Positions 48,047 to 64,000 of a stretch of 64,000 nt of DNA are shown here, piece after piece. The notes beneath the pieces are model-generated. The model saw nothing but the letters and a program-made list of their open reading frames with translations. It was not told the DNA's origin and searched no databases. The first letter of the stretch is position 1; each line of letters opens with the position of its first letter. The stretch comes from an uncultured Gemmatimonadota bacterium (GTDB lineage Bacteria; Gemmatimonadota; Gemmatimonadetes; Gemmatimonadales; Gemmatimonadaceae): contig CAIRYG010000013.1 of NCBI GenBank assembly GCA_903882745.1, positions 1-64,000 of the forward strand. Reading direction: 5' to 3'. A program made the position numbers and the translations under genes.

Positions 48047-49975
48047 TCAGGAGCTGACGCGCAGCCCCTCGTCGATCATGCCGCGCAACCACTGTTCCAG
48101 CACGAGCGCCGCGAACGGTTGATAGCCCCAGGTGGCGTTCCAGCCGGTCTGTGCAGCGAGGGTCGCGGCACCCGCCGCGCTCAGAATTCCCGCCCGCACC
48201 AGCGCGCCGTCGCGCAGCGAACTGCCGTAGCGCGCGGTGAGTCCGCCGAGCCACGCGTCATACGGTGGTTCAAATCCGCGCTTCTGTCGCGAGAGCACAT
48301 AGTCGGGGAGTAGCCCGCGCACGGCTTCGCGCATCCACGTTTTGGGTGGGAGCTGCCAGTCGGGGTGCGATTTACGGAGACCAATCACCGTCTCGACCAA
48401 GCGATAGTCCACGAGCGGCAGTCGCACTTCGACGGACGCATGCATGCCGAGTCGATCTCCCTGCGTGATACCATTCTCACGCAGATAGAGATTGGTCATG
48501 AGGCTGGTGACGCGCATGTCGACGCGATCGGGCATCGCGTCGAAAGTGAACCACTGCTCGGCTGGACCGCGCTCACCTTGCATGGCTGCGCCATACACCT
48601 GCGGCATGACGGCGCGCGCTTGTTGGAAATGCTGATTCAGGTCGTACGACACGAGCTGTCCGGCAGGACTCTGCATGTCGCGCGCGCGTTCGGCCAAGCC
48701 GTCGGCCCAGCCGAAGCGTCGCCGCCACCATTTGCGCAGCCCCCAGGGGGAGAGGCGTGGCGGTGGTTCGAACCGGACGTAGTCGTTGAGGGAGAAGTGG
48801 CCGCGCGCGAGGGATCGTTGCTTGCGGAGGGTTTGGCGCAGCCCCTGCTGCGGCCAGCTGTAGCCCCAGAACAGTTCGTCGCCGCCTTGGCCCATCAGGA
48901 GGACGGGTACGTGCTGTTCGCGCGCGTTCTGCATGACCGCCCAGTAGCCGTAGCCCGCAATGTCGGCGATCGGGTCGTCTGTGGCGCGACAGAGCTGCGG
49001 AAAACTTTCTACCACATCAGCCGTACGGCACTCAATCTCGATCAGCGGAATCTTGAGATCAGCGGCAAAGCGGGCCGCGTCGGCGCGCTCGTCGCACGGG
49101 GGGCGTCCCTCGTAGCCCACACTGAAGGCCACGAGCCCCGGGCACTGTGGCGCCGCGAGCGCCGCGACCGTGCTGGAGTCGAGGCCGCCCGAGAGCGCCA
49201 CGCCGACGGGGACATCGCTCCGTACGACGAGCGGTGCAATTTCTTCGAGCATACCGCGCACGGTGGTCGCGGGGTCTGCTTCGAGGGGAGTCGCGTCTTC
49301 CAGATTCCACCACCGCGACGTGGTCACGCGCCAGGGCGCGAGCTCCACGACCATGCGGTGTCCCGCGTCGAGCTTCCGCACATCCGCAAGCGGAGTGCGC
49401 GGCTCGGGGACCCAAAGAAAATGGAAATAGTGATCAATCGCTTCGTAGTCGAGCGCACCTGAGGGCGCTCCGGAGCGTACGAGGGCGCGCAGTTCGGAGG
49501 CGAAGGTCAGCGTGCCCTGTCCTTCGTGCACGTACAGCGGTTTCTCGCCCATGCGGTCGCGCACAATGAGTGCGCGCTGCCGCGTGGCGTCCCACAGCGC
49601 AAAGGCGAACATGCCGCGGAGGCGATGGACGCAGTCGTCGCCGAGTTCTTCGTACAGGTGCGCAATGACTTCGATGTCGCTTCCGGTGCGCAGGGTATGA
49701 CCACGTGCGGTGAGTTCGGTGGCGAGCTCGCGTGCATTGTAGATCTCACCGTTCGCCACCACACCGACGCTGCGATCTTCGTTGTAGAGTGGCTGCCATC
49801 CGCCGGCCACGTCGATGATGCTCAGGCGACGATTATCGAGCCGCACCTGTGCGTCGCGCAGCGTCCCGTCGCCATCCGGCCCGCGATGCACGAGCGCGCG
49901 CGCCATCGCATCACAGGCTGTTTGATCGGCGGCGGTGAGTGGTGCGGCGGAGAGGCGTCCCGAGATGCCGCACAT
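48047..49975 (-). CDS. asnB: glutamine-hydrolysing asparagine synthase-like amidotransferase
   Basis: 642 residues. Cys2 (MCGISGRL) is the glutaminase nucleophile; ALVHRGPDG, NGEIYN and GSDIEVIAHLYEEL follow. The synthetase part has the PP-loop VALSGGLDSSTVAAL and GQGGDELFWGY. The length exceeds E. coli AsnB (554), as in exopolysaccharide-locus enzymes. Such proteins probably amidate uronic acids or similar substrates of the polysaccharide; free asparagine synthesis is possible. The start lies two bases after the stop of the upstream glycosyltransferase. A second member is fused to a GT4 at 61229. Confidence 0.9.
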   Translation of the reverse strand: MCGISGRLSAAPLTAADQTACDAMARALVHRGPDGDGTLRDAQVRLDNRRLSIIDVAGGWQPLYNEDRSVGVVANGEIYNARELATELTARGHTLRTGSDIEVIAHLYEELGDDCVHRLRGMFAFALWDATRQRALIVRDRMGEKPLYVHEGQGTLTFASELRALVRSGAPSGALDYEAIDHYFHFLWVPEPRTPLADVRKLDAGHRMVVELAPWRVTTSRWWNLEDATPLEADPATTVRGMLEEIAPLVVRSDVPVGVALSGGLDSSTVAALAAPQCPGLVAFSVGYEGRPPCDERADAARFAADLKIPLIEIECRTADVVESFPQLCRATDDPIADIAGYGYWAVMQNAREQHVPVLLMGQGGDELFWGYSWPQQGLRQTLRKQRSLARGHFSLNDYVRFEPPPRLSPWGLRKWWRRRFGWADGLAERARDMQSPAGQLVSYDLNQHFQQARAVMPQVYGAAMQGERGPAEQWFTFDAMPDRVDMRVTSLMTNLYLRENGITQGDRLGMHASVEVRLPLVDYRLVETVIGLRKSHPDWQLPPKTWMREAVRGLLPDYVLSRQKRGFEPPYDAWLGGLTARYGSSLRDGALVRAGILSAAGAATLAAQTGWNATWGYQPFAALVLEQWLRGMIDEGLRVSS

Positions 49976-49977
49976 GG

Positions 49978-51408
49978 TCAGGGCGCGCCGGTGGCGGCGT
50001 GGCGGTGCATCGCAAACCAGGCGAGATACGCACTCGCGCTCTGTGTCAGGTCGAACCGTTTGCGTGCATCGCTCACGGCGGTACGGCTCATGGCGGCGCG
50101 AAGCGGTGGGCGTTCAAGGAGCGTAATGAGCGCCCGCGCCATCGTGGTCGCATCGCCTGCGGGAACGAGCACGCCGCCGCTCTGCGCTTCGGTGCCGTCG
50201 AGGCAGGCGGCGAGCGTGTCCGCCGTAAAGGCGTTCCCGAGTGTCTCCGCAATCCCGCCGACATCAGTCGCAATGACTGGCGTGCCACAGGCTAGCGACT
50301 CCAGCACGACCAGCGGTTGCGTGTCCATCCGTGAAGGATGCACAAAGACGTCGGCGGCGCGATACCACTGGGCCAGGCGTGCCGGATCCCGCTCGTAGGT
50401 GGCGGCAACAAACTGGACGCCGCCAATCGATTCGGTCGGGGCGCTCTCGCCGAGTGCCACGAAGATGATCTCGCGGCGCGGAAGCGCGGCGCCGGCTCGT
50501 GCGATCACGTCGCGGAGGAGTGCGGGATCCTTCCACATGTTGTGGCGGAGCATGTGCGCCGACGCGAGCACGACGGCTGCACCGGCGGGAAGCCCAAGCG
50601 CGCGTCGCGCGGCGCCGCGGTCGCCGGGGCAGTAGGTGGCGAGGTCCACGCCGTTGGAAATCACCTGCGCGCTGGCCATGGCCGGGCGGAGGATCGAGGC
50701 GTCCACCTTGTCCATCAGCCAGTGCGCCGGCGCGGCGACATGGAGCTGGCTCGCGGAGAGGATGTCCCGTTTGCGGCGCCAGTTTTCGGCGGTCGCGTCG
50801 GCAGCAATCGGGGGATAGATCGTGAGGTCTGGGCACTGGCCGCACCCCGACTGCCAGCGCGTGCAGTCAAAGGAGTGCGCGCAATGTCCCGCGAGCAGCC
50901 AGGCGTCGTGGAGTGTGAGGAAGACGGGGGCGATAGTCCGGAGTTCGGCGAGCAGGCGCAGATCGAACCAGTCGCCATGCAAATTGTGGGCGTGGACGAC
51001 GGTTCCCGGCTCGCGGGCCAACTCGAGAATGGCGCGCGAGGCGGGAAAATCCCACGATTCAATGCCGGACTGTTGGTCGCGCGCGCGCTCAGGATGCCGC
51101 CAGCGGCGCGCAGCGCGCGTCAGCGCGCCTGCACCAGGGAGCGTGCCGGCAAATGGCTTGGCGGCCCCTTCTAGGGCGCCACACGCGGTTCGCCAGGCCG
51201 AGAAGGGCTCGCGGGCGGCCAGGTCAATGACCGTCGGGTCGTTGGTGTGCTTCTTTCCGACCGCCATTACGGCGCGCACGCCAGCCGCGAGGTACGCGCG
51301 GTGCAGGTTGCGGGCCATCGCCTCGGCGCCCCCGGCGATGTCGCTGGTGCTGAGGGTGAGTACGCGGAGTGGCGCCTGCGCGTGACCCACTGGCCCGGAG
51401 GGGCTCAC
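49978..51408 (-). CDS. family 4 glycosyltransferase
   Basis: 476 residues from the GTG at 51408, which overlaps the stop of the upstream methyltransferase by four bases; an in-frame GTG at 51435 is less likely. The GT-B fold is indicated by LRVLTLSTSDIAGGAEAMARNLH, VHAHNLHGDWFDLRLL, ISNGVDLATYCPGD, and the C-terminal donor site FVHPSRMDTQPLVVLESLACGTPVIATDVGG with the E-x7-E pattern. The C-x-x-C pair (SGCGQC) recurs in this GT4 subgroup. Retaining transferase of unknown sugar. Confidence 0.88.
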   Translation of the reverse strand: MSPSGPVGHAQAPLRVLTLSTSDIAGGAEAMARNLHRAYLAAGVRAVMAVGKKHTNDPTVIDLAAREPFSAWRTACGALEGAAKPFAGTLPGAGALTRAARRWRHPERARDQQSGIESWDFPASRAILELAREPGTVVHAHNLHGDWFDLRLLAELRTIAPVFLTLHDAWLLAGHCAHSFDCTRWQSGCGQCPDLTIYPPIAADATAENWRRKRDILSASQLHVAAPAHWLMDKVDASILRPAMASAQVISNGVDLATYCPGDRGAARRALGLPAGAAVVLASAHMLRHNMWKDPALLRDVIARAGAALPRREIIFVALGESAPTESIGGVQFVAATYERDPARLAQWYRAADVFVHPSRMDTQPLVVLESLACGTPVIATDVGGIAETLGNAFTADTLAACLDGTEAQSGGVLVPAGDATTMARALITLLERPPLRAAMSRTAVSDARKRFDLTQSASAYLAWFAMHRHAATGAP

Positions 51409-52103
51409 CACGTGGGGAGGTCGGCGAGTCGCCACAGACCAAGCGACTTATCGGGATAGCGGCCGTCGAACTCGGTGCATCCTTCGTTGATGAGGGCGAC
51501 GGGCTCGGGGAAGCCATAGGGCGCCTGCTGGAGCATGGTCGGTCGCCAATCGCCGGTGACAATGTCGTGGTTGGCGCGCGTGCTGGTAAACGTTGTGGTG
51601 AGCAACCACGTGGCGCCGCTGCGACGGAAGTTGTCGAGGGCGCGGCGGGTCTCGTCGTACGAGAGATGCACCAGGCAATCGCGACAGAATATCAGGTCAG
51701 CCGTGGGAAGCGCTCCCTCGACGATGTCGCCGAGCACGAAGGTGCGGTCGGCGGAGCCGTAGCTGGCGCGATTGCGGGCAATCAGCGCGGGGACGATGTC
51801 CACCCCGGTGTAGTGGATGCCCGTAAGCGGCACATGTTGCATCCAGTTGAAGTCGCCGCAGGGGGCGTCGAGGATGCTGCCGACCCCATGTGCCGCGAGC
51901 AGTGCTGGAATGGCCTCGCGGATCATGGCGGTCTGGCCGAGCTCCGAGCCGGGGCCAGACACCGACGTGGGGCTCCCCCAGAAGTTGGTCTGGAAGATCT
52001 CGGAGAAGACCCGAAAGCGGCGCCGAGCTGCCGCCCAGCGCCCGAGTGCCGGAAAGAGCCGCGCGAGCCCAGCGGCGAGTCGGTAGCGGCGGGCGATGGG
52101 CAC
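51405..52103 (-). CDS. SAM-dependent methyltransferase, class I
   Basis: 232 residues, GTG start. Motif I SILDAPCGDFNWMQHV and motif II TGVDIVPALI bind SAM, followed by LIFCRDCLVHLSYDET (motif IV/V). It matches the group of methyltransferases found in polysaccharide loci. It would methylate a sugar of the EPS or another small molecule. Divergent from the plus-strand glycosyltransferase at 52187; first gene of the minus-strand trio with the GT4 and AsnB. Confidence 0.85.
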   Translation of the reverse strand: MPIARRYRLAAGLARLFPALGRWAAARRRFRVFSEIFQTNFWGSPTSVSGPGSELGQTAMIREAIPALLAAHGVGSILDAPCGDFNWMQHVPLTGIHYTGVDIVPALIARNRASYGSADRTFVLGDIVEGALPTADLIFCRDCLVHLSYDETRRALDNFRRSGATWLLTTTFTSTRANHDIVTGDWRPTMLQQAPYGFPEPVALINEGCTEFDGRYPDKSLGLWRLADLPTW

Positions 52104-57081: not shown

Positions 57082-57868
57082 CCATACCAGTGGCGAGTCC
57101 TTTGCCGACCGCGACGATTCCGTCCGTCTGAAGCCCCGGCCACTCGGCCCATTGTTCGACGTTTGCGAAGTACGGCGCGTCTAAGGCATCGTCGAGGAAC
57201 CATCGTGTGCCGGTGCGCGCGACGGCCGCGAGCGACGGCACGGTGAGGTCGCGCGATTCGCGAGGGCCATCCACGAGCAACCAGTCGGCGGTACCGGTGA
57301 GCTGGTCGAGCACGACCGCAGGATCGAACCGGTAGTTGCCGTCGGATGCAATCGGTGCATCGAGCACCGTCACCCACGGCGTGAGGGCGAGCGCGGCGAT
57401 GCGTTCGCGCAGTGCGGCGGCGTATGCGGCGTCCTGTTCCAGTGTGACGAGATGGCCGGACGTCGCGTCCCCCTGTTCACGTAAGAGACAGGCCCCGAGC
57501 ACGGTGCTCACCCCACCACCGCACTCCACAATGCGCCGCGGCGCGTCGCGCAGTCCAGCGCGCCAGAGCCATCGAACGGTTTCGGCATCGAGCGACCAGT
57601 GTCCGAGGGTGGTACTGCCGAGTGCCGCGGCGAGAGGTGCCGGCAGGCGCGCCTGTTGGGCCGACGTGGGCGACGGAGACCGCACGAGGAGCTCGCGACG
57701 ATTGGTCGTTGCGCGAACCCGCCGCGCCGCACGTTGCCACACCGGCAAGGGGATCGGTGCATCGCGGTGCGTGAATCGCAGCAGTGCGAACTGCGTGGCG
57801 GCGAAGGCCTCACCCCACGCCCACGCCGCGCGTCTCGCTTCAATCCGGACGCGATCTCCAACGCTCAC
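57038..57868 (-). CDS. class I methyltransferase-like protein
   Basis: 276 residues from the GTG overlapping the stop of the ABC ATPase by four bases; the longer open frame upstream lies inside the ATPase gene. The core shows RRIVECGGGVSTVLGACLL (motif I), LVTLEQDAAYAAALRERI and DWLLVDGPRESRDLT, as in O-methyltransferase-like and FkbM-neighbouring proteins. The N-terminal 100 residues are helical and basic. Its 3' end overlaps the convergent GT4 by 44 bases. Probably the third gene of the exporter operon. Confidence 0.75.
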   Translation of the reverse strand: MSVGDRVRIEARRAAWAWGEAFAATQFALLRFTHRDAPIPLPVWQRAARRVRATTNRRELLVRSPSPTSAQQARLPAPLAAALGSTTLGHWSLDAETVRWLWRAGLRDAPRRIVECGGGVSTVLGACLLREQGDATSGHLVTLEQDAAYAAALRERIAALALTPWVTVLDAPIASDGNYRFDPAVVLDQLTGTADWLLVDGPRESRDLTVPSLAAVARTGTRWFLDDALDAPYFANVEQWAEWPGLQTDGIVAVGKGLATGMVTNPSAATAAVLGR

Positions 57869-59112
57869 GGTGCGACCCCGTGGAGTGTCCACGCGTGGTC
57901 CACGAGCATCGGTCCTTGATCTGCCGGGGGCAAGCGACCATTGCCGAAGAAATCTCCAGCTTCCACCTCCATCACTCCGGCGTGCTGCACCCAGTCCGCG
58001 ATGTCGTGCTGGACGGTGGCGAACACCGTGATTCGATAGCGGCCAGGCTGCAGCGGTACCCGCGGAAGGCGACACTGCACAGTGCCGGCGGCGGGTGCCG
58101 AGGTGTAGTCGCCACCAACGGTCGCGGTCGACAGGTGGAAGAGTTGATCATCGAGCGCGCCGTGTACGGCGATCGACACGTGGAGGTCTCGCAGCTCCTC
58201 GGTGCTGGCACTCTCGTACCCGAGCGAGATGGTTGCCCCGCCGCCCGCGAGCACCGGGCCGTCGGTCCCATCGCCGCGGACGGCACAGGTCGAAAACCGG
58301 ATGCGACCATTCCCGCTCCGGTCGGCCCGATTCCGGAGATCGACGTGCCCCGCCTGTTCGAGCGACGCGAGATAGTGCTGGGCGACGTCGCCAATCGGCC
58401 CCTCTGCCGCAAGGCGGCCACGGTCGAGCAGCATACCGCGCGAGCACAGGCCCGTGACTGCCACCAGGTTGTGACTCACGAGCAACACGGTGCGACCGTC
58501 CTGCCGTGTGACATCGCCCATCTTGCCGAGGCATTTTTTCTGGAATGCCGCGTCGCCGACGGCGAGCACTTCGTCGACAATCAAAATGTCGGGCTCGAGA
58601 TGCGCCGCAACGGCGAACGCCAAGCGCACGTACATTCCGCTGCTGTAGCGCTTGACGGGTACGTCGAGAAATGCCTCGGTCTCGGCGAAGGCGACAATCG
58701 CATCAAACTGCCGAACGATTTCGCTCCGACGCATGCCGAGGATCGCGCCATTGAGAAAGATGTTTTCGCGTCCGGTCAACTCTGGGTGGAACCCGGTCCC
58801 GACCTCGAGCAAGCTGCCCACACGACCGCGGACCTCCACCTCGCCGCGCGTGGGGCGCGTGATCCGACTCAAGATCTTGAGCAACGTGCTCTTGCCCGCA
58901 CCGTTGCGTCCGATGATACCATACGCAGCGCCGGCCTCGACATCGAAACTCACATCGTCGAGCGCCCACAGCGTTTTGGGATCGCGTGGCGCGCGACCGC
59001 GAAGCCGATCCACCACCGCCTCCGCCATGGTCGTGGCTGTCGATGTGTGGTCGCTGATGTTGTACTGCTTGCCGATGCCGCGCGCGCGGAGCGCGAACTG
59101 ACTAGATGACAT
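57865..59112 (-). CDS. wzt: ABC transporter ATP-binding protein of polysaccharide export (Wzt-type)
   Basis: 415 residues from the ATG at 59112, which overlaps the permease end by 11 bases. Walker A GIIGRNGAGKSTLLKIL, the signature KRYSSGMYVRLAFAVA, Walker B ILIVDEVLAVGD and switch SHN are intact. The extra 170-residue C-terminal part (from about 245) is a beta domain, GGGATISLGYESA and LPRVPLQPGRYRI, like the Wzt carbohydrate-binding domain that recognises a capped chain. It powers export of a polysaccharide across the inner membrane with the permease next to it. Confidence 0.93.
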   Translation of the reverse strand: MSSSQFALRARGIGKQYNISDHTSTATTMAEAVVDRLRGRAPRDPKTLWALDDVSFDVEAGAAYGIIGRNGAGKSTLLKILSRITRPTRGEVEVRGRVGSLLEVGTGFHPELTGRENIFLNGAILGMRRSEIVRQFDAIVAFAETEAFLDVPVKRYSSGMYVRLAFAVAAHLEPDILIVDEVLAVGDAAFQKKCLGKMGDVTRQDGRTVLLVSHNLVAVTGLCSRGMLLDRGRLAAEGPIGDVAQHYLASLEQAGHVDLRNRADRSGNGRIRFSTCAVRGDGTDGPVLAGGGATISLGYESASTEELRDLHVSIAVHGALDDQLFHLSTATVGGDYTSAPAAGTVQCRLPRVPLQPGRYRITVFATVQHDIADWVQHAGVMEVEAGDFFGNGRLPPADQGPMLVDHAWTLHGVAP

Positions 59113-59926
59113 CGGCCAGATCCTGCTCGAAGCGGGTGAACACCACAAGGCCCGCGAGCACCGCGAGCGTACTCGCGGTGCACAGCCACACGACCGCGCC
59201 CCCTGACGGCGCCTGCATCCCGAGCAGACTCCAGCGGATGCCGTCCATAAGCCCCGTGAGCGGATTCAGGGCGAGATAGGGCTGGAATGCCGCCGGTACC
59301 TTGGCGGTCGCGTAGCCGACCGGGGTCGCATACACCAGCAACTGCAGCACAATCGGCAGCACGTGCTGCACGTCGCGGAACCGGACACTCCACGCGGCCA
59401 CGATCAATCCAGCCCCAAGTCCGAGGAGGAGTGCGAGCAGCACCCACAGCGGGAAGAGTAGCACGGGCCAGCCAATAGACACGCCCTTCAGCAGCGCGAT
59501 TCCACCAAAAACCAGCAATGCAATGCCGAGATCGACGAGCGTCGAGAGGATGCCCGAGAGCGGCAAGACCAGGCGCGGGAAGTACACCTTGCTCAGGACG
59601 GGTGCGTTCGCGAGCAGCGATGCCCCAGCTTTGGCGAGTGTCGACTGAAAGACCTGGAATCCGGCGTAGCCTGCAAAGGCGAGCAGGAAGTAGCGCCCGT
59701 CGCCGTCGTCCAGCTTCGCGATTTTGCCAAAGACCACGGTGAACACCCCCGCGGCAATAATCGGCTGCAGCACCACCCAGAGGACGCCAAGCACCGTTTG
59801 CCGATACCGCAGCCGGAGGTCGCGGGCGGCAAAGGTCCAGACGAGTTCACGGTACAGCCACAGCTCGCCGAAGTCGGGGAGCAGCCGGCTGGTGAACGGG
59901 CGGATCGTGGAGAGCTGAGGAGGCAC
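59102..59926 (-). CDS. wzm: ABC transporter permease of polysaccharide export (Wzm-type)
   Basis: 274 residues from the GTG at 59926, giving the normal family length; the frame stays open upstream but that sequence lies in the intergenic space and in the divergent GT4 gene. The ABC-2 fold is clear: ELVWTFAARDLRLRYRQTVLG, then six membrane spans, with LQPIIAAGVFTVVFG, VRFRDVQHVLPIVLQLLVYATPVGY and LNPLTGLMDGIRW near the C-terminus. First gene of the exporter operon. Confidence 0.92.
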   Translation of the reverse strand: MPPQLSTIRPFTSRLLPDFGELWLYRELVWTFAARDLRLRYRQTVLGVLWVVLQPIIAAGVFTVVFGKIAKLDDGDGRYFLLAFAGYAGFQVFQSTLAKAGASLLANAPVLSKVYFPRLVLPLSGILSTLVDLGIALLVFGGIALLKGVSIGWPVLLFPLWVLLALLLGLGAGLIVAAWSVRFRDVQHVLPIVLQLLVYATPVGYATAKVPAAFQPYLALNPLTGLMDGIRWSLLGMQAPSGGAVVWLCTASTLAVLAGLVVFTRFEQDLADVI

Positions 59927-60043
59927 GGTCCGAGGGTGGGGACGGTCTGGGGCCACGCTGCCGGGGGGCAGGGTGGGAGCGCGACCACGAAAGTTATCCC
60001 CGCTGTGCCTTGACTGGGCAAGTCCGCGACCGATCTTGCTTGG

Positions 60044-61228
60044 ATGCCTGCCGCCGCGCCTCCTGACCAGAGCCCCTTTTCGCTCGCCTTTGTGGCGCAC
60101 GCCGTGCACCGCCGGGGCGGCATGGAGCGCGCCGCCTGCGAAGTGCTCGCGCGAGTGGCTCGGCGTGTGCCAGTCACCGTGATTGCCAGCGCGTGCGATA
60201 TGCCCGAAGCGTCGCTTCGGTTCGAACGGGTCACCGCGCCGCAGCGCCCGGCGGTGTTGCGCACCTGGGCGTTCGCCCGTGCGGCGCGCACGATCGAGAC
60301 GCGGGTCGGTGCCACGATCACGAACGCCATTGGTGCGGCCGCCATCGACGCCGACGTCATCACCGCACAGTTCTGCCACGCGGCCTTCACTGCACGCTTC
60401 GGTGGGCTCCGTGGCGGGCGGGGACTCCGCGCGCTGTATCAACGGGTGTCGGGCGCGAGATTTGTTGCCGAGGAGCGCCATGCCTATGGGTCGAGGCGCC
60501 TGAAACAGGTGATCGCCGTTTCACAGGGTACCGCGCGCGAGTTGCAGGAGATGTACGGGGTCGCGGAGGAGCGGATCACGGTGGTCCCCAATGGGGTGGA
60601 TCGCACGGTGTTCGCACCTGCGGCCGATGGCGAGGCCAAGGCGGCACTCCGGACGAAGCTTGGGCTGCCAGCCGACGCCTTCCTTGCCTTGTTCGTCGGT
60701 GGTGATTGGGAACGCAAAGGGGTCCGCGATGCCATTGCGGCGATTGCCGGCGTCCCCGATGCGCACCTCGTGGTGCTTGGCCGCGGCGATGCGGAGGCCT
60801 TTGGTGCCTACGCTGCGCGTGTGGGCTCGGGTCGCCGGGTAAGCTTTGTACCACCGTCGCCGTCGCCGGAGCAGTTCTATGCCGCCTGTGACTGCTTCGT
60901 CTTTCCCTCGCGCTACGAGGCCTTCTCGCTCGTGACGCTCGAGGCGGCCGCTTCGGGACTGCCGATTATCGCGCACGCGATCAACGGCACCGAAGAGCTG
61001 GTGGCCGCCGATCACAATGGATGGTTGGTCCCCTTTGGTCCCGACGCGCTCGCCGAAAAGGTGCTGCGCTTGCGGGACGATGCCGCCGTGCGGGCGCGCA
61101 TGTCGGTCGCCGCGACGCAGAGCGCCGTGCGCTACGACTGGGACCGCATTGCCGATGAGCAGTTCGCCGTCTTCACCCGCGCGGCTGCGGAAGCGCGACA
61201 GGCACCTCGCGCGATGAGGACCCGCTAG
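60044..61228 (+). CDS. family 4 glycosyltransferase
   Basis: 394 residues, ATG start, divergent from the permease. FSLAFVAHAVHRRGGMERAA, ITVVPNGVDRTVFAP, ALFVGGDWERKGVRDAI and DCFVFPSRYEAFSLVTLEAAASGLPIIAH (E-x7-E) mark a retaining GT-B enzyme. The stop codon is directly followed by the start of the AsnB-GT4 gene, so the two are co-transcribed. Confidence 0.92.
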   Translation: MPAAAPPDQSPFSLAFVAHAVHRRGGMERAACEVLARVARRVPVTVIASACDMPEASLRFERVTAPQRPAVLRTWAFARAARTIETRVGATITNAIGAAAIDADVITAQFCHAAFTARFGGLRGGRGLRALYQRVSGARFVAEERHAYGSRRLKQVIAVSQGTARELQEMYGVAEERITVVPNGVDRTVFAPAADGEAKAALRTKLGLPADAFLALFVGGDWERKGVRDAIAAIAGVPDAHLVVLGRGDAEAFGAYAARVGSGRRVSFVPPSPSPEQFYAACDCFVFPSRYEAFSLVTLEAAASGLPIIAHAINGTEELVAADHNGWLVPFGPDALAEKVLRLRDDAAVRARMSVAATQSAVRYDWDRIADEQFAVFTRAAAEARQAPRAMRTR

Positions 61229-64000
61229 ATGTGCGGCATTATTGGCGTTATTCGTGAAGGGGCGGCCGAGGCGCGCGATCGGTTGGTGGTCGCGCGCGAC
61301 TTGATGTGGCATCGCGGCCCCGATGACGCGGGGCTGTGGTGTAGCAATCACGCCTGTATCGGTGCGCGGCGACTCTCGATTATCGACCTATCGGCGGCAG
61401 GGCACCAGCCGATGGTCAGTGCCGATGGCACGATTGTGCTCGTGTTCAATGGCGAGATCTACAATCACCGCGAGCTCCGTCGCGAACTCGAACCCGGGTG
61501 CGTCTTCACCTCGTCGACGGATTTTGAGCTGTTGCTGCACGGGTATCGCCGGTGGGGCGGGGAAGGGCTGGTGCGCCGCCTCGATGGCATGTTCGCCTTT
61601 GCTATTTGGGACGAAACCACGCGGACGTTGTTCGCCGCGCGTGATCGTGCCGGAAAAAAGCCGTTCTTTTTCCGCCGCGACGGGCGCACGATGCAGTTTG
61701 CCTCGACGCTCAACGCGCTCAGTGCGCTGCTGCCGGGAACGCCCGACGTCGATCCGGCGGCCATCGACGCCTTTCTGGTGTACCAAAGCGTTCCCGCGCC
61801 GCTCTCCGTATTTCGGGGCGTCCAGCAGCTGGAACCAGCGCACTTCCTTGAGTTTCAGGCCGACCGCGGCGACTGCCGGATTGCGCGCTACTGGAGCGTG
61901 TCGTACGCGCACAAGACAACGGCGTCCGAGGACGAGGTGGTCGCGCAGACCGACGCGCTCGTGCGCACCGCGGTACGTCGGCGGCTCGAGTCCGATGTGC
62001 CGGTGGGAATCTTCCTCTCCGGCGGTGTGGACTCGTCGTTGATCGCAGCGCTTGCAGCGCAGGAGAGCTCGCGCGACCTCGAGGCGGTGACGCTCGGCTT
62101 CGACGAACCCGAGTTCGACGAACGTCGCTACGCGCGCGCCGTCACGGATGCACTGGGCATGCGTCTCCATGAGGAGACGCTCAGGCCAGCGCTCGTGGCG
62201 GATCTCCCCTCGATTGTCTGGCACTACGGACAACCGCTCGCCGACGTCTCGATTGTGCCCAATCACTACTTGGCGCAGGCGGCACGTCGGTGGATGACGG
62301 TGGCGCTCAACGGCGATGGTGGCGACGAACTGTTTGGTGGCTATGCGCGCCCGATGCTGGCGCGCGCGACCGCCCCATATCGCGCGACGATGCCGGAGTC
62401 CTGGCGGCGTGGTCTGGCCGCCGCGGTCGGCATGCCGGAATCCGGCCCGTTTCGACGCGTTGGCATGTTCACGAACGCAGGCGCGGGCTCTGCGAGCGAA
62501 TCCTTCGTGTACAGTCGTGCGTTCCGCGATTTCCGTCTGCAAGCGTATCCGCCCGAATTTCTGGCGACCCTCGATGGCGCGCAGCCCGATGATTTGTATC
62601 GGGCCGTCTGGGACGCGGCGGACGGTGTCGACGACGTCGATCGCGCGCTCGAGGGGGACTTCCGGACCTACCTGCCCGACCAGCTGCTCGCGAAGGCGGA
62701 TCGCGCGAGCATGGCGCACAGCCTCGAAGCGCGCTCGCCGCTCCTCGACCGCGCGCTGATTGAGTACGCCGCCACGATCCCGACGTCGATTCGTCTGCGA
62801 GGGTATCAGACCAAGCATGTGCTGAAGGCGGTTGCCGAGCGCTATGTGCCGTCGTTCGTGCTGCATCGCCCCAAGCGCGGGTTCGTGATGCCGGCGTCGC
62901 GATGGTTGCGCGGTGAGTTGGCACCGTACGTGCGCGCCGCACTCGATAATCGCACCTTCTACGACCGCGGCTGGGTACGCCCCGAGTTCGTCCGTCGCGT
63001 GCTCGCGGAACACTTCACTGGCGTGCGCGACTGGGGTGAGCAGATCTGGACCATGCTCGTGCTCGAGGTGTGGGCGCGGCTCGTGCTCGACCGCTCGCTC
63101 GACCGCGATGCGTGCATGGATGCCTTCCTGCAGCGGCCAGAGCGCGCCCTGCCGGCTCCGGTCCGCACGCTGCAGATCGGGATGGAATGGTTCCCCGAGA
63201 AGCCCGGGGGGTTGAATCGCGTCTATTACGAACTGATGCGCCATCTGCCCGACGTCAACGTCGAGGTCCATGGTCTTGTTGCCGGGACGGACCGTGTTGC
63301 GCGCGACTCGAACGGGAATGTTGAGGCGTTCGCTTCGTACTCAGGGAGCTTAGCGCCTCGTCTGCTGGCGGCGCGGCGACTCGGGCAGCCGCTGCTTCGT
63401 GCCAATCCCGACTTGGTCGTCGTGTCGCACTTTGCCCTCTATACCGCGCCGCTGCTCGACTCCATTGGGGGGCATCCGTTGGTGGTGCACTTCCAAGGAC
63501 CGTGGGGGCTTGAGGGGAAAGTCGAGCGGCAGTCCGAAGTCGTCGTGCGCACCAAGAGCACGATCGAGCAAAAGGTCTATGCGCGCGCAGATTCCTTTAT
63601 TGTTTTGTCGCCGCCGTTCGCCGACATCCTCGTGCAGCAGTTTGGTGTCTCGCGCGAAAAAATCCACGTCATCCCTGGTGGTGTCGACGTCCCTCGTTAC
63701 GACATCGCGGAGTCGCGCGAGGCCTGTCGCGAGCGGCTTGGCTGGCCCGCGGACCGACCGATCGTGCTCACGGTCCGCCGTCTCATGCGCCGCATGGGAC
63801 TCGACAACCTGATCGCCGCAACGCTCGCCATCCGCGCGCAGATTCCTGATATCCTCGTGCTTGTGGCCGGCGGTGGGCCGATCCAAGATGAGTTGCACCG
63901 TCAGATCGTGTCGCTGGGCCTCGAGGCGAATGTGCGGCTCCTGGGTTTCCTTCCCGACAACGAGCTTCCGGCGGCGTATCGCGCGGCGTCACTCACCGTG
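61229..64000 (+). CDS. asparagine synthase fused to a family 4 glycosyltransferase (3' end outside window)
   Basis: One frame from the ATG at 61229, immediately after the previous stop, runs without a stop to base 64000; 924 residues visible. Residues 1 to about 625 are a complete AsnB: Cys2 (MCGIIGVI), MWHRGPDDAG, NGEIYNHREL, the PP-loop FLSGGVDSSLIAAL, NGDGGDELFGGY and SLEARSPLLD. After a short linker (ACMDAFLQRPERALPAP) a GT-B N-terminal domain begins at about residue 645 (63161): LQIGMEWFPEKPGGLNRVYYE, then IHVIPGGVDVPRYD and TVRRLMRRMGLDNLI. The donor-site E-x7-E should lie past the window. ATG at 63116 could serve as an internal start for a separate GT. Confidence 0.88.
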   Translation, partial: MCGIIGVIREGAAEARDRLVVARDLMWHRGPDDAGLWCSNHACIGARRLSIIDLSAAGHQPMVSADGTIVLVFNGEIYNHRELRRELEPGCVFTSSTDFELLLHGYRRWGGEGLVRRLDGMFAFAIWDETTRTLFAARDRAGKKPFFFRRDGRTMQFASTLNALSALLPGTPDVDPAAIDAFLVYQSVPAPLSVFRGVQQLEPAHFLEFQADRGDCRIARYWSVSYAHKTTASEDEVVAQTDALVRTAVRRRLESDVPVGIFLSGGVDSSLIAALAAQESSRDLEAVTLGFDEPEFDERRYARAVTDALGMRLHEETLRPALVADLPSIVWHYGQPLADVSIVPNHYLAQAARRWMTVALNGDGGDELFGGYARPMLARATAPYRATMPESWRRGLAAAVGMPESGPFRRVGMFTNAGAGSASESFVYSRAFRDFRLQAYPPEFLATLDGAQPDDLYRAVWDAADGVDDVDRALEGDFRTYLPDQLLAKADRASMAHSLEARSPLLDRALIEYAATIPTSIRLRGYQTKHVLKAVAERYVPSFVLHRPKRGFVMPASRWLRGELAPYVRAALDNRTFYDRGWVRPEFVRRVLAEHFTGVRDWGEQIWTMLVLEVWARLVLDRSLDRDACMDAFLQRPERALPAPVRTLQIGMEWFPEKPGGLNRVYYELMRHLPDVNVEVHGLVAGTDRVARDSNGNVEAFASYSGSLAPRLLAARRLGQPLLRANPDLVVVSHFALYTAPLLDSIGGHPLVVHFQGPWGLEGKVERQSEVVVRTKSTIEQKVYARADSFIVLSPPFADILVQQFGVSREKIHVIPGGVDVPRYDIAESREACRERLGWPADRPIVLTVRRLMRRMGLDNLIAATLAIRAQIPDILVLVAGGGPIQDELHRQIVSLGLEANVRLLGFLPDNELPAAYRAASLTV

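Follow-up and report, generated by a model that had tools for sequence, protein, structure and literature searches.

The locus and the fused gene

The window (the whole stretch of DNA analysed, 64,000 nucleotides) lies on a host contig, C13, of 67,443 bases, in a genome of 3.06 Mb in 14 contigs, and it ends inside a gene where an AsnB-type glutamine amidotransferase and a GT4 glycosyltransferase are read in one frame. The features concerned are the following.

48047-49975, minus strand: stand-alone AsnB paralogue, beside a separate GT4 gene (49978-51435, minus strand)
57865-60481, minus strand: genes of a Wzt/Wzm-type polysaccharide ABC exporter (frames 57865-59148 and 59102-60481; PF00005 with PF14524; PF01061), adjoining the operon
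60044-61228, plus strand: GT4 gene upstream of the fusion, a conserved neighbour, ending at the base before the fusion's ATG
61229-64000, plus strand: window part of the AsnB-GT4 fusion gene, an open frame with its stop outside the window, after C13:64294
61229-61723, plus strand: N-terminal class II glutamine amidotransferase (glutaminase) with nucleophile Cys2; GATase_6/GATase_7; CGI, NGEIYN and STDFE motifs
61952-63079, plus strand: Asn_synthase (ATP-pyrophosphatase, amide-forming) with SGGVDSS and GDGGDE; PF00733, E 1.5e-93, residues 242-617
63089-63160, plus strand: linker joining the two domains (residues 621-644), modelled as flexible in an orthologue
63116-63118, plus strand: internal in-frame ATG (codon 630), a candidate GT4 start judged unused
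63161-64000, plus strand: GT4 (GT-B fold; PF13439, PF00534, EX7E motif, MshA-like fold), window part

The frame is open from the ATG at 61229 through the end of the window, which holds 924 of the 1022 codons, and on the host contig it continues to a stop directly after C13:64294. A sequence-only reading of the window had described a full AsnB, with Cys2, PP-loop and GDGGDE, running without interruption into a GT4 domain, and had proposed reading beyond 64000 for the donor motif and the stop. Both are there, the EX7E motif at residues 931-939 (EGFGLIVAE, C13:64019-64045) lying just beyond the window. The protein, of 1022 amino acids and a predicted 112.8 kDa, consists of the amidotransferase (1-617), a linker (about 621-644) and the GT4 (645-1022), with both enzyme halves complete, and its Pfam matches are all above cut-off (GATase_6/7, Asn_synthase at 242-617, Glyco_transf_4 at 659-821 and Glycos_transf_1 from 830). 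The first half joins a class II glutaminase (Cys2, NGE and Asp motifs) to an Asn_synthase domain with the PP-loop SGGVDSS and GDGGDE, and its fold agrees with this assignment; the second has Glyco_transf_4 and Glycos_transf_1 above gathering score, a GT-B fold and EX7E.

The surroundings are those of a polysaccharide locus, with genes for a sugar transferase, export, an O-antigen-ligase-like protein, a methyltransferase, many GT2/GT4 enzymes and Wzm/Wzt. The next gene downstream is another GT4, overlapping the fusion's stop by a few bases; in most of the loci compared the fusion has another GT4 gene on either side, and in every one of them it sits among polysaccharide glycosyltransferases. None of the locus genes examined was seen to encode a sugar dehydrogenase, and the two NDP-sugar dehydrogenases above cut-off in the host genome are both on another contig. 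The genome also has an asparaginyl-tRNA synthetase above cut-off and additional AsnB genes, namely the copies on C9 and the one at 48047-49975, which had been pointed out before and is real. The GT4 gene upstream of this last (49978-51435) and the AsnB gene itself form a separate pair on the minus strand, 2 bases apart. At the end of C13, outside the window (L009:6111-6544), lies a short tandem repeat with a YSEVQRSTAK-like pattern in translation, probably the point where the assembly stopped.

Conservation of the junction

Both domains are carried in one stop-free frame by 17 of 179 Gemmatimonadaceae genomes, the host included, the other 16 fusions being 56-86% identical to that of the host over their full length. 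They are spread over four genera (genus groups g1, n = 10; g29, n = 5; g4 and g22, n = 1 each); three further loci, L040, L041 and L118, are the same sequences as genomes already in this family set. Two more fused junctions are found in G034 and G120, on genes cut by contig ends, bringing to 19 of 22 the readable junctions that are fused, without stop or frameshift. Orthologues that were always separate at this site had been named as what would speak against the join, and this is not what the related genomes hold. An assembly or frameshift artefact is rejected, since 16 other full-length genes, and the two at contig ends, have the junction too. The catalytic motifs of both halves are kept in all 17 fused proteins, apart from a few single-residue departures. 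Pairwise comparisons give a dN/dS of 0.035-0.12 in the AsnB part and of 0.04-0.16 in the GT part, values that indicate purifying selection on both. The gene is thus confirmed as a genuine fusion and not a sequencing error.

In AsnB-type enzymes the catalytic cysteine is usually followed by glycine; the g29 fused proteins (L019, L020, L022, L023 and L024) begin with Met-Cys-Ala instead of Met-Cys-Gly, with Cys2 retained.

In three g2 genomes (G001, G005 and G006) AsnB and GT4 are adjacent separate genes, which in G001 and G006 overlap by ATGA. In six others, five of g31 and one of g6, the GT4 stands beside its usual neighbour or neighbours and the AsnB is missing. The g31 loci (L121-L125) are the same polysaccharide locus with the GT4 alone, whilst at the g6 locus (L120) only the GT4 neighbours are seen. 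The GT4 therefore does not need the amidotransferase everywhere, and amidation may be an optional addition to a core transferase. The fusion gene is absent from genomes of the same genus at 95-100% completeness (e.g., G036), which fits an accessory sugar enzyme.

Linker and internal start

In the model of a relative the linker of about 24 amino acids runs from the last AsnB helix (603-620) to the first GT4 strand (645-653), and the fixed points that flank it are 31-46 residues apart in the Gemmatimonadaceae genes, in frame throughout. Initiation at 63116 had been raised as the rival to a single product: the halves would be made separately, by initiation at this internal ATG or by re-initiation, and the open frame would not be a functional fusion. 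The ATG at codon 630 is indeed kept in nine of the 17 fused genes, all of g1, and split genes with an ATGA overlap occur in g2; the other eight fused genes, however, lack this codon, in-frame starts around the linker are not preceded by a Shine-Dalgarno-like site, and the stretch scanned in G014 offers no in-frame start ahead of the first strand of the GT4 domain. The amino acids of the linker are themselves constrained in g1 pairs (dN/dS 0-0.11), although relaxed in g29 (0.43-0.50). Use of 63116 for a separate GT4 is, on these comparisons, unlikely, and separate manufacture of the halves as a general account of the gene very improbable.

Origin of the fusion

The closest relative outside the family, L042 (a bin named Armatimonadaceae), has AsnB and GT4 split, and with this outgroup adjacent separate genes are likely the older state. 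The split g2 genes nest among the fused ones in the joined tree, and a topology with the fused genes as one clade, to the exclusion of the split g2 genes and L042, is rejected (p-AU 0.0003). At least two changes are then needed: either the genes fused once and came apart again later in g2, or they fused more than once. The AsnB frame of L042 is broken near its 3′ end with signs of frameshift (L042:7500-7980), and the taxonomy of the bin or its sequence quality may be off.

Fusions in Elusimicrobiota

When one genome per species was scanned, an AsnB-GT4 frame of 1019 amino acids came up in Elusimicrobiota (L043). AsnB-GT4 in one frame is present in 7 of 248 genomes of this phylum, the six relatives of L043 being 41-87% identical, and at ten other Elusimicrobiota loci examined (L165, L166-L172, L177 and L178; e.g., L165:1314-4253) AsnB of the same clade continues in frame into a GT9 domain (heptosyltransferase-like); partner domains were assigned with Pfam on a subset. 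These fusions resemble those of the Gemmatimonadaceae in domain order, size and linker, and in having an AsnB half also closest to TIGR03108 (502-508 bits); they differ from them in a separate AsnB clade and in a different GT4 lineage or a GT9 as partner. As the AsnB tree keeps the Elusimicrobiota clade apart from that of the Gemmatimonadaceae (100/100 support for the latter), the two sets arose separately. Within the Elusimicrobiota the GT4 and GT9 partners interleave in the AsnB tree, and at least four changes are forced by well-supported branches.

Elsewhere in the sample the arrangement was not met with. Among 93 frames examined for an extra C-terminal domain on AsnB in other organisms, only the Elusimicrobiota one has it, and of the matches from 50 further genomes the long AsnB frames checked are upstream extensions with no C-terminal fusion. 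Other long AsnB frames of Gemmatimonadota (up to 1332 amino acids) were rejected as C-terminal fusions, AsnB lying near the frame end in all those fetched. A reversed fusion in L173, with GT4 ahead of AsnB, was likewise rejected, as the two lie in different frames by their coordinates. No published AsnB-glycosyltransferase fusion was found in the open-access literature searched, and 'undescribed' is a provisional word for it.

Family assignment and predicted structure

The best NCBIfam model for the AsnB half is TIGR03108 (XrtA/PEP-CTERM amidotransferase), with 516.7 bits, below the curated cut-off of 816.9, while the AsnB half exceeds, with 439.1 bits, the cut-off of 267.1 set for the general asparagine synthase model TIGR01536. 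None of the named GT4 models comes near its cut-off with the GT4 half. A link to an exosortase was looked for and none found: the host genome has no match to exosortase (EpsH, TIGR02602) at E up to 0.001.

The pass of TIGR01536, together with an asparaginyl-tRNA synthetase in the genome, by which free asparagine could be used, might be taken to mean that the AsnB half simply makes asparagine from aspartate, as ordinary asparagine synthetases do, with the join to the GT4 being neutral or only setting expression. E. coli AsnB (1ct9; TIGR01536) does have the two domains and the catalytic motifs of this half in common with it; the fusion, however, has an extra C-terminal GT4, is accessory and sits in a polysaccharide locus. 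The separate-gene and Elusimicrobiota relatives also pass TIGR01536, so that passing it does not decide what the substrate is, and the score to TIGR03108 is the higher of the two. Moreover, the genome has other AsnB genes (on C9 and at 48047), nearly or fully complete genomes of the same genus do without the fusion, the gene keeps the company of polysaccharide glycosyltransferases in every locus compared, and a neutral link would leave its recurrence with both GT4 and GT9 unexplained. We therefore regard asparagine synthesis as a rather improbable role.

An AlphaFold2 model was made of the L040 orthologue, about 71% identical to the host fusion. Its mean pLDDT is 91 and its pTM 0.68, and pLDDT drops below 50 at 638-641, where one well-folded part gives way to the other; in this prediction the domain folds are secure, and the placement of AsnB and GT4 relative to each other is not fixed by the model. 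No solved chain matching both halves by sequence was found. With Foldseek, the GT half is closest to MshA (3c48), which, like PimB' and BshA, shares with it the GT-B fold, Glyco_transf_4 with Glycos_transf_1 and EX7E, whereas in the fusion an AsnB module comes before the GT4. For the AsnB half the nearest folds are those of the hydroxyamidotransferase TsnB9 (7ylz) and of AsnB (1ct9), and TsnB9 is the nearest solved structure by sequence as well. TsnB9 is an AsnB homologue named for forming a hydroxyamide and not asparagine; it has no glycosyltransferase domain, and its identity to the AsnB half in the fold alignment is only 24-25%.

AsnB homologues such as TsnB9 and beta-lactam synthetase act on acids other than aspartate. 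With TsnB9 as the nearest structure, and the fold shared by beta-lactam and carbapenam synthetases too, the AsnB half could amidate or condense some other carboxylate of a glycan (e.g., of an amino-acid, lactyl or acyl substituent), the GT4 adding the residue that bears it. We hold this to be unlikely, since in the literature examined the described products of AsnB homologues from surface-glycan systems are uronamides (PMC7468200, PMC6025236), and a further glycan with a putative homologue of this kind in its locus contains uronate amides (PMC12407052).

Proposed function

The interpretation we lean towards, with somewhat more confidence than doubt, is that of one bifunctional enzyme of 113 kDa, in which a WbpS-like uronic-acid amidotransferase would be coupled to a GT4 for capsule or exopolysaccharide synthesis. 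The sequence-only reading had suggested that a fused enzyme could amidate a sugar acid and transfer it, and the comparisons made here support this within the limits of sequence evidence. The chemistry of AsnB is established: ammonia derived from glutamine attacks an acyl-adenylate. Here the AsnB half would free ammonia from glutamine, activate a carboxylate with ATP and form the amide, whilst the GT4 half would move a sugar from its nucleotide donor onto a growing lipid-linked glycan. The carboxylate would be the C6 of a uronic acid, either on the donor of the GT4 or on the residue just added, and the fusion would keep amidation and transfer together. The uronic acid as substrate, the sequence of the two steps and any channelling are our inference; by analogy with related enzymes, a C6 uronate is the most likely substrate.

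The analogy is to WbpS and WbqG (P. aeruginosa O6 and E. coli O121) and to PGN_1234 (P. gingivalis), of TIGR03108, which likewise consist of a class II glutaminase and an Asn_synthase domain. Like the fusion, WbpS/WbqG-type enzymes are encoded in surface-glycan loci beside glycosyltransferases; they are, however, described as stand-alone in the literature examined, whereas the fusion is joined to a GT4 and stays below the TIGR03108 cut-off. WbpS and WbqG have been assigned to TIGR03108 and linked to uronamide formation, the position of WbpS in its pathway being stated as not known (PMC7468200). In H. pullorum a wbpS mutant has a truncated glycan, and on the basis of earlier work the enzyme is proposed to act on the nucleotide sugar (PMC6025236). 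A putative asparagine synthase gene is also present in the Bordetella b-Cool locus, whose glycan carries two uronate amides (PMC12407052).

In favour of uronamide formation count the content of the locus, TIGR03108 as the closest model and the NDP-sugar dehydrogenases of the genome; against it count the missed cut-off of that same model, the pass of TIGR01536, the location of the dehydrogenases away from the locus and a domain arrangement that is not fixed. The independent AsnB-GT4 and AsnB-GT9 fusions of the Elusimicrobiota strengthen the case for amidation coupled to transfer, and a join of AsnB to a glycosyltransferase that was kept over long evolution and arose twice suggests that both enzymes act on the same sugar. 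If so, this natural tie, with its split and GT-only relatives, allows the WbpS-type step to be tested directly and indicates the transferase that deals with the amidated residue, and the fusion may serve as a ready tool for making uronamide glycans.

In a wider sense, these proteins might form a recurrent class of amidating glycosyltransferases, where a sugar-acid amidotransferase was joined at least twice (in Gemmatimonadaceae and in Elusimicrobiota) to the transferase of the same residue, with swaps between GT4 and GT9, and amidation and transfer would take place in one complex; to us the arguments for this generalisation and those against it are evenly balanced. As to the swaps, two Elusimicrobiota genomes (G462 and G500) have a GT4 gene directly after AsnB-GT9, so that AsnB-GT4 could arise through a deletion that removes the GT9.
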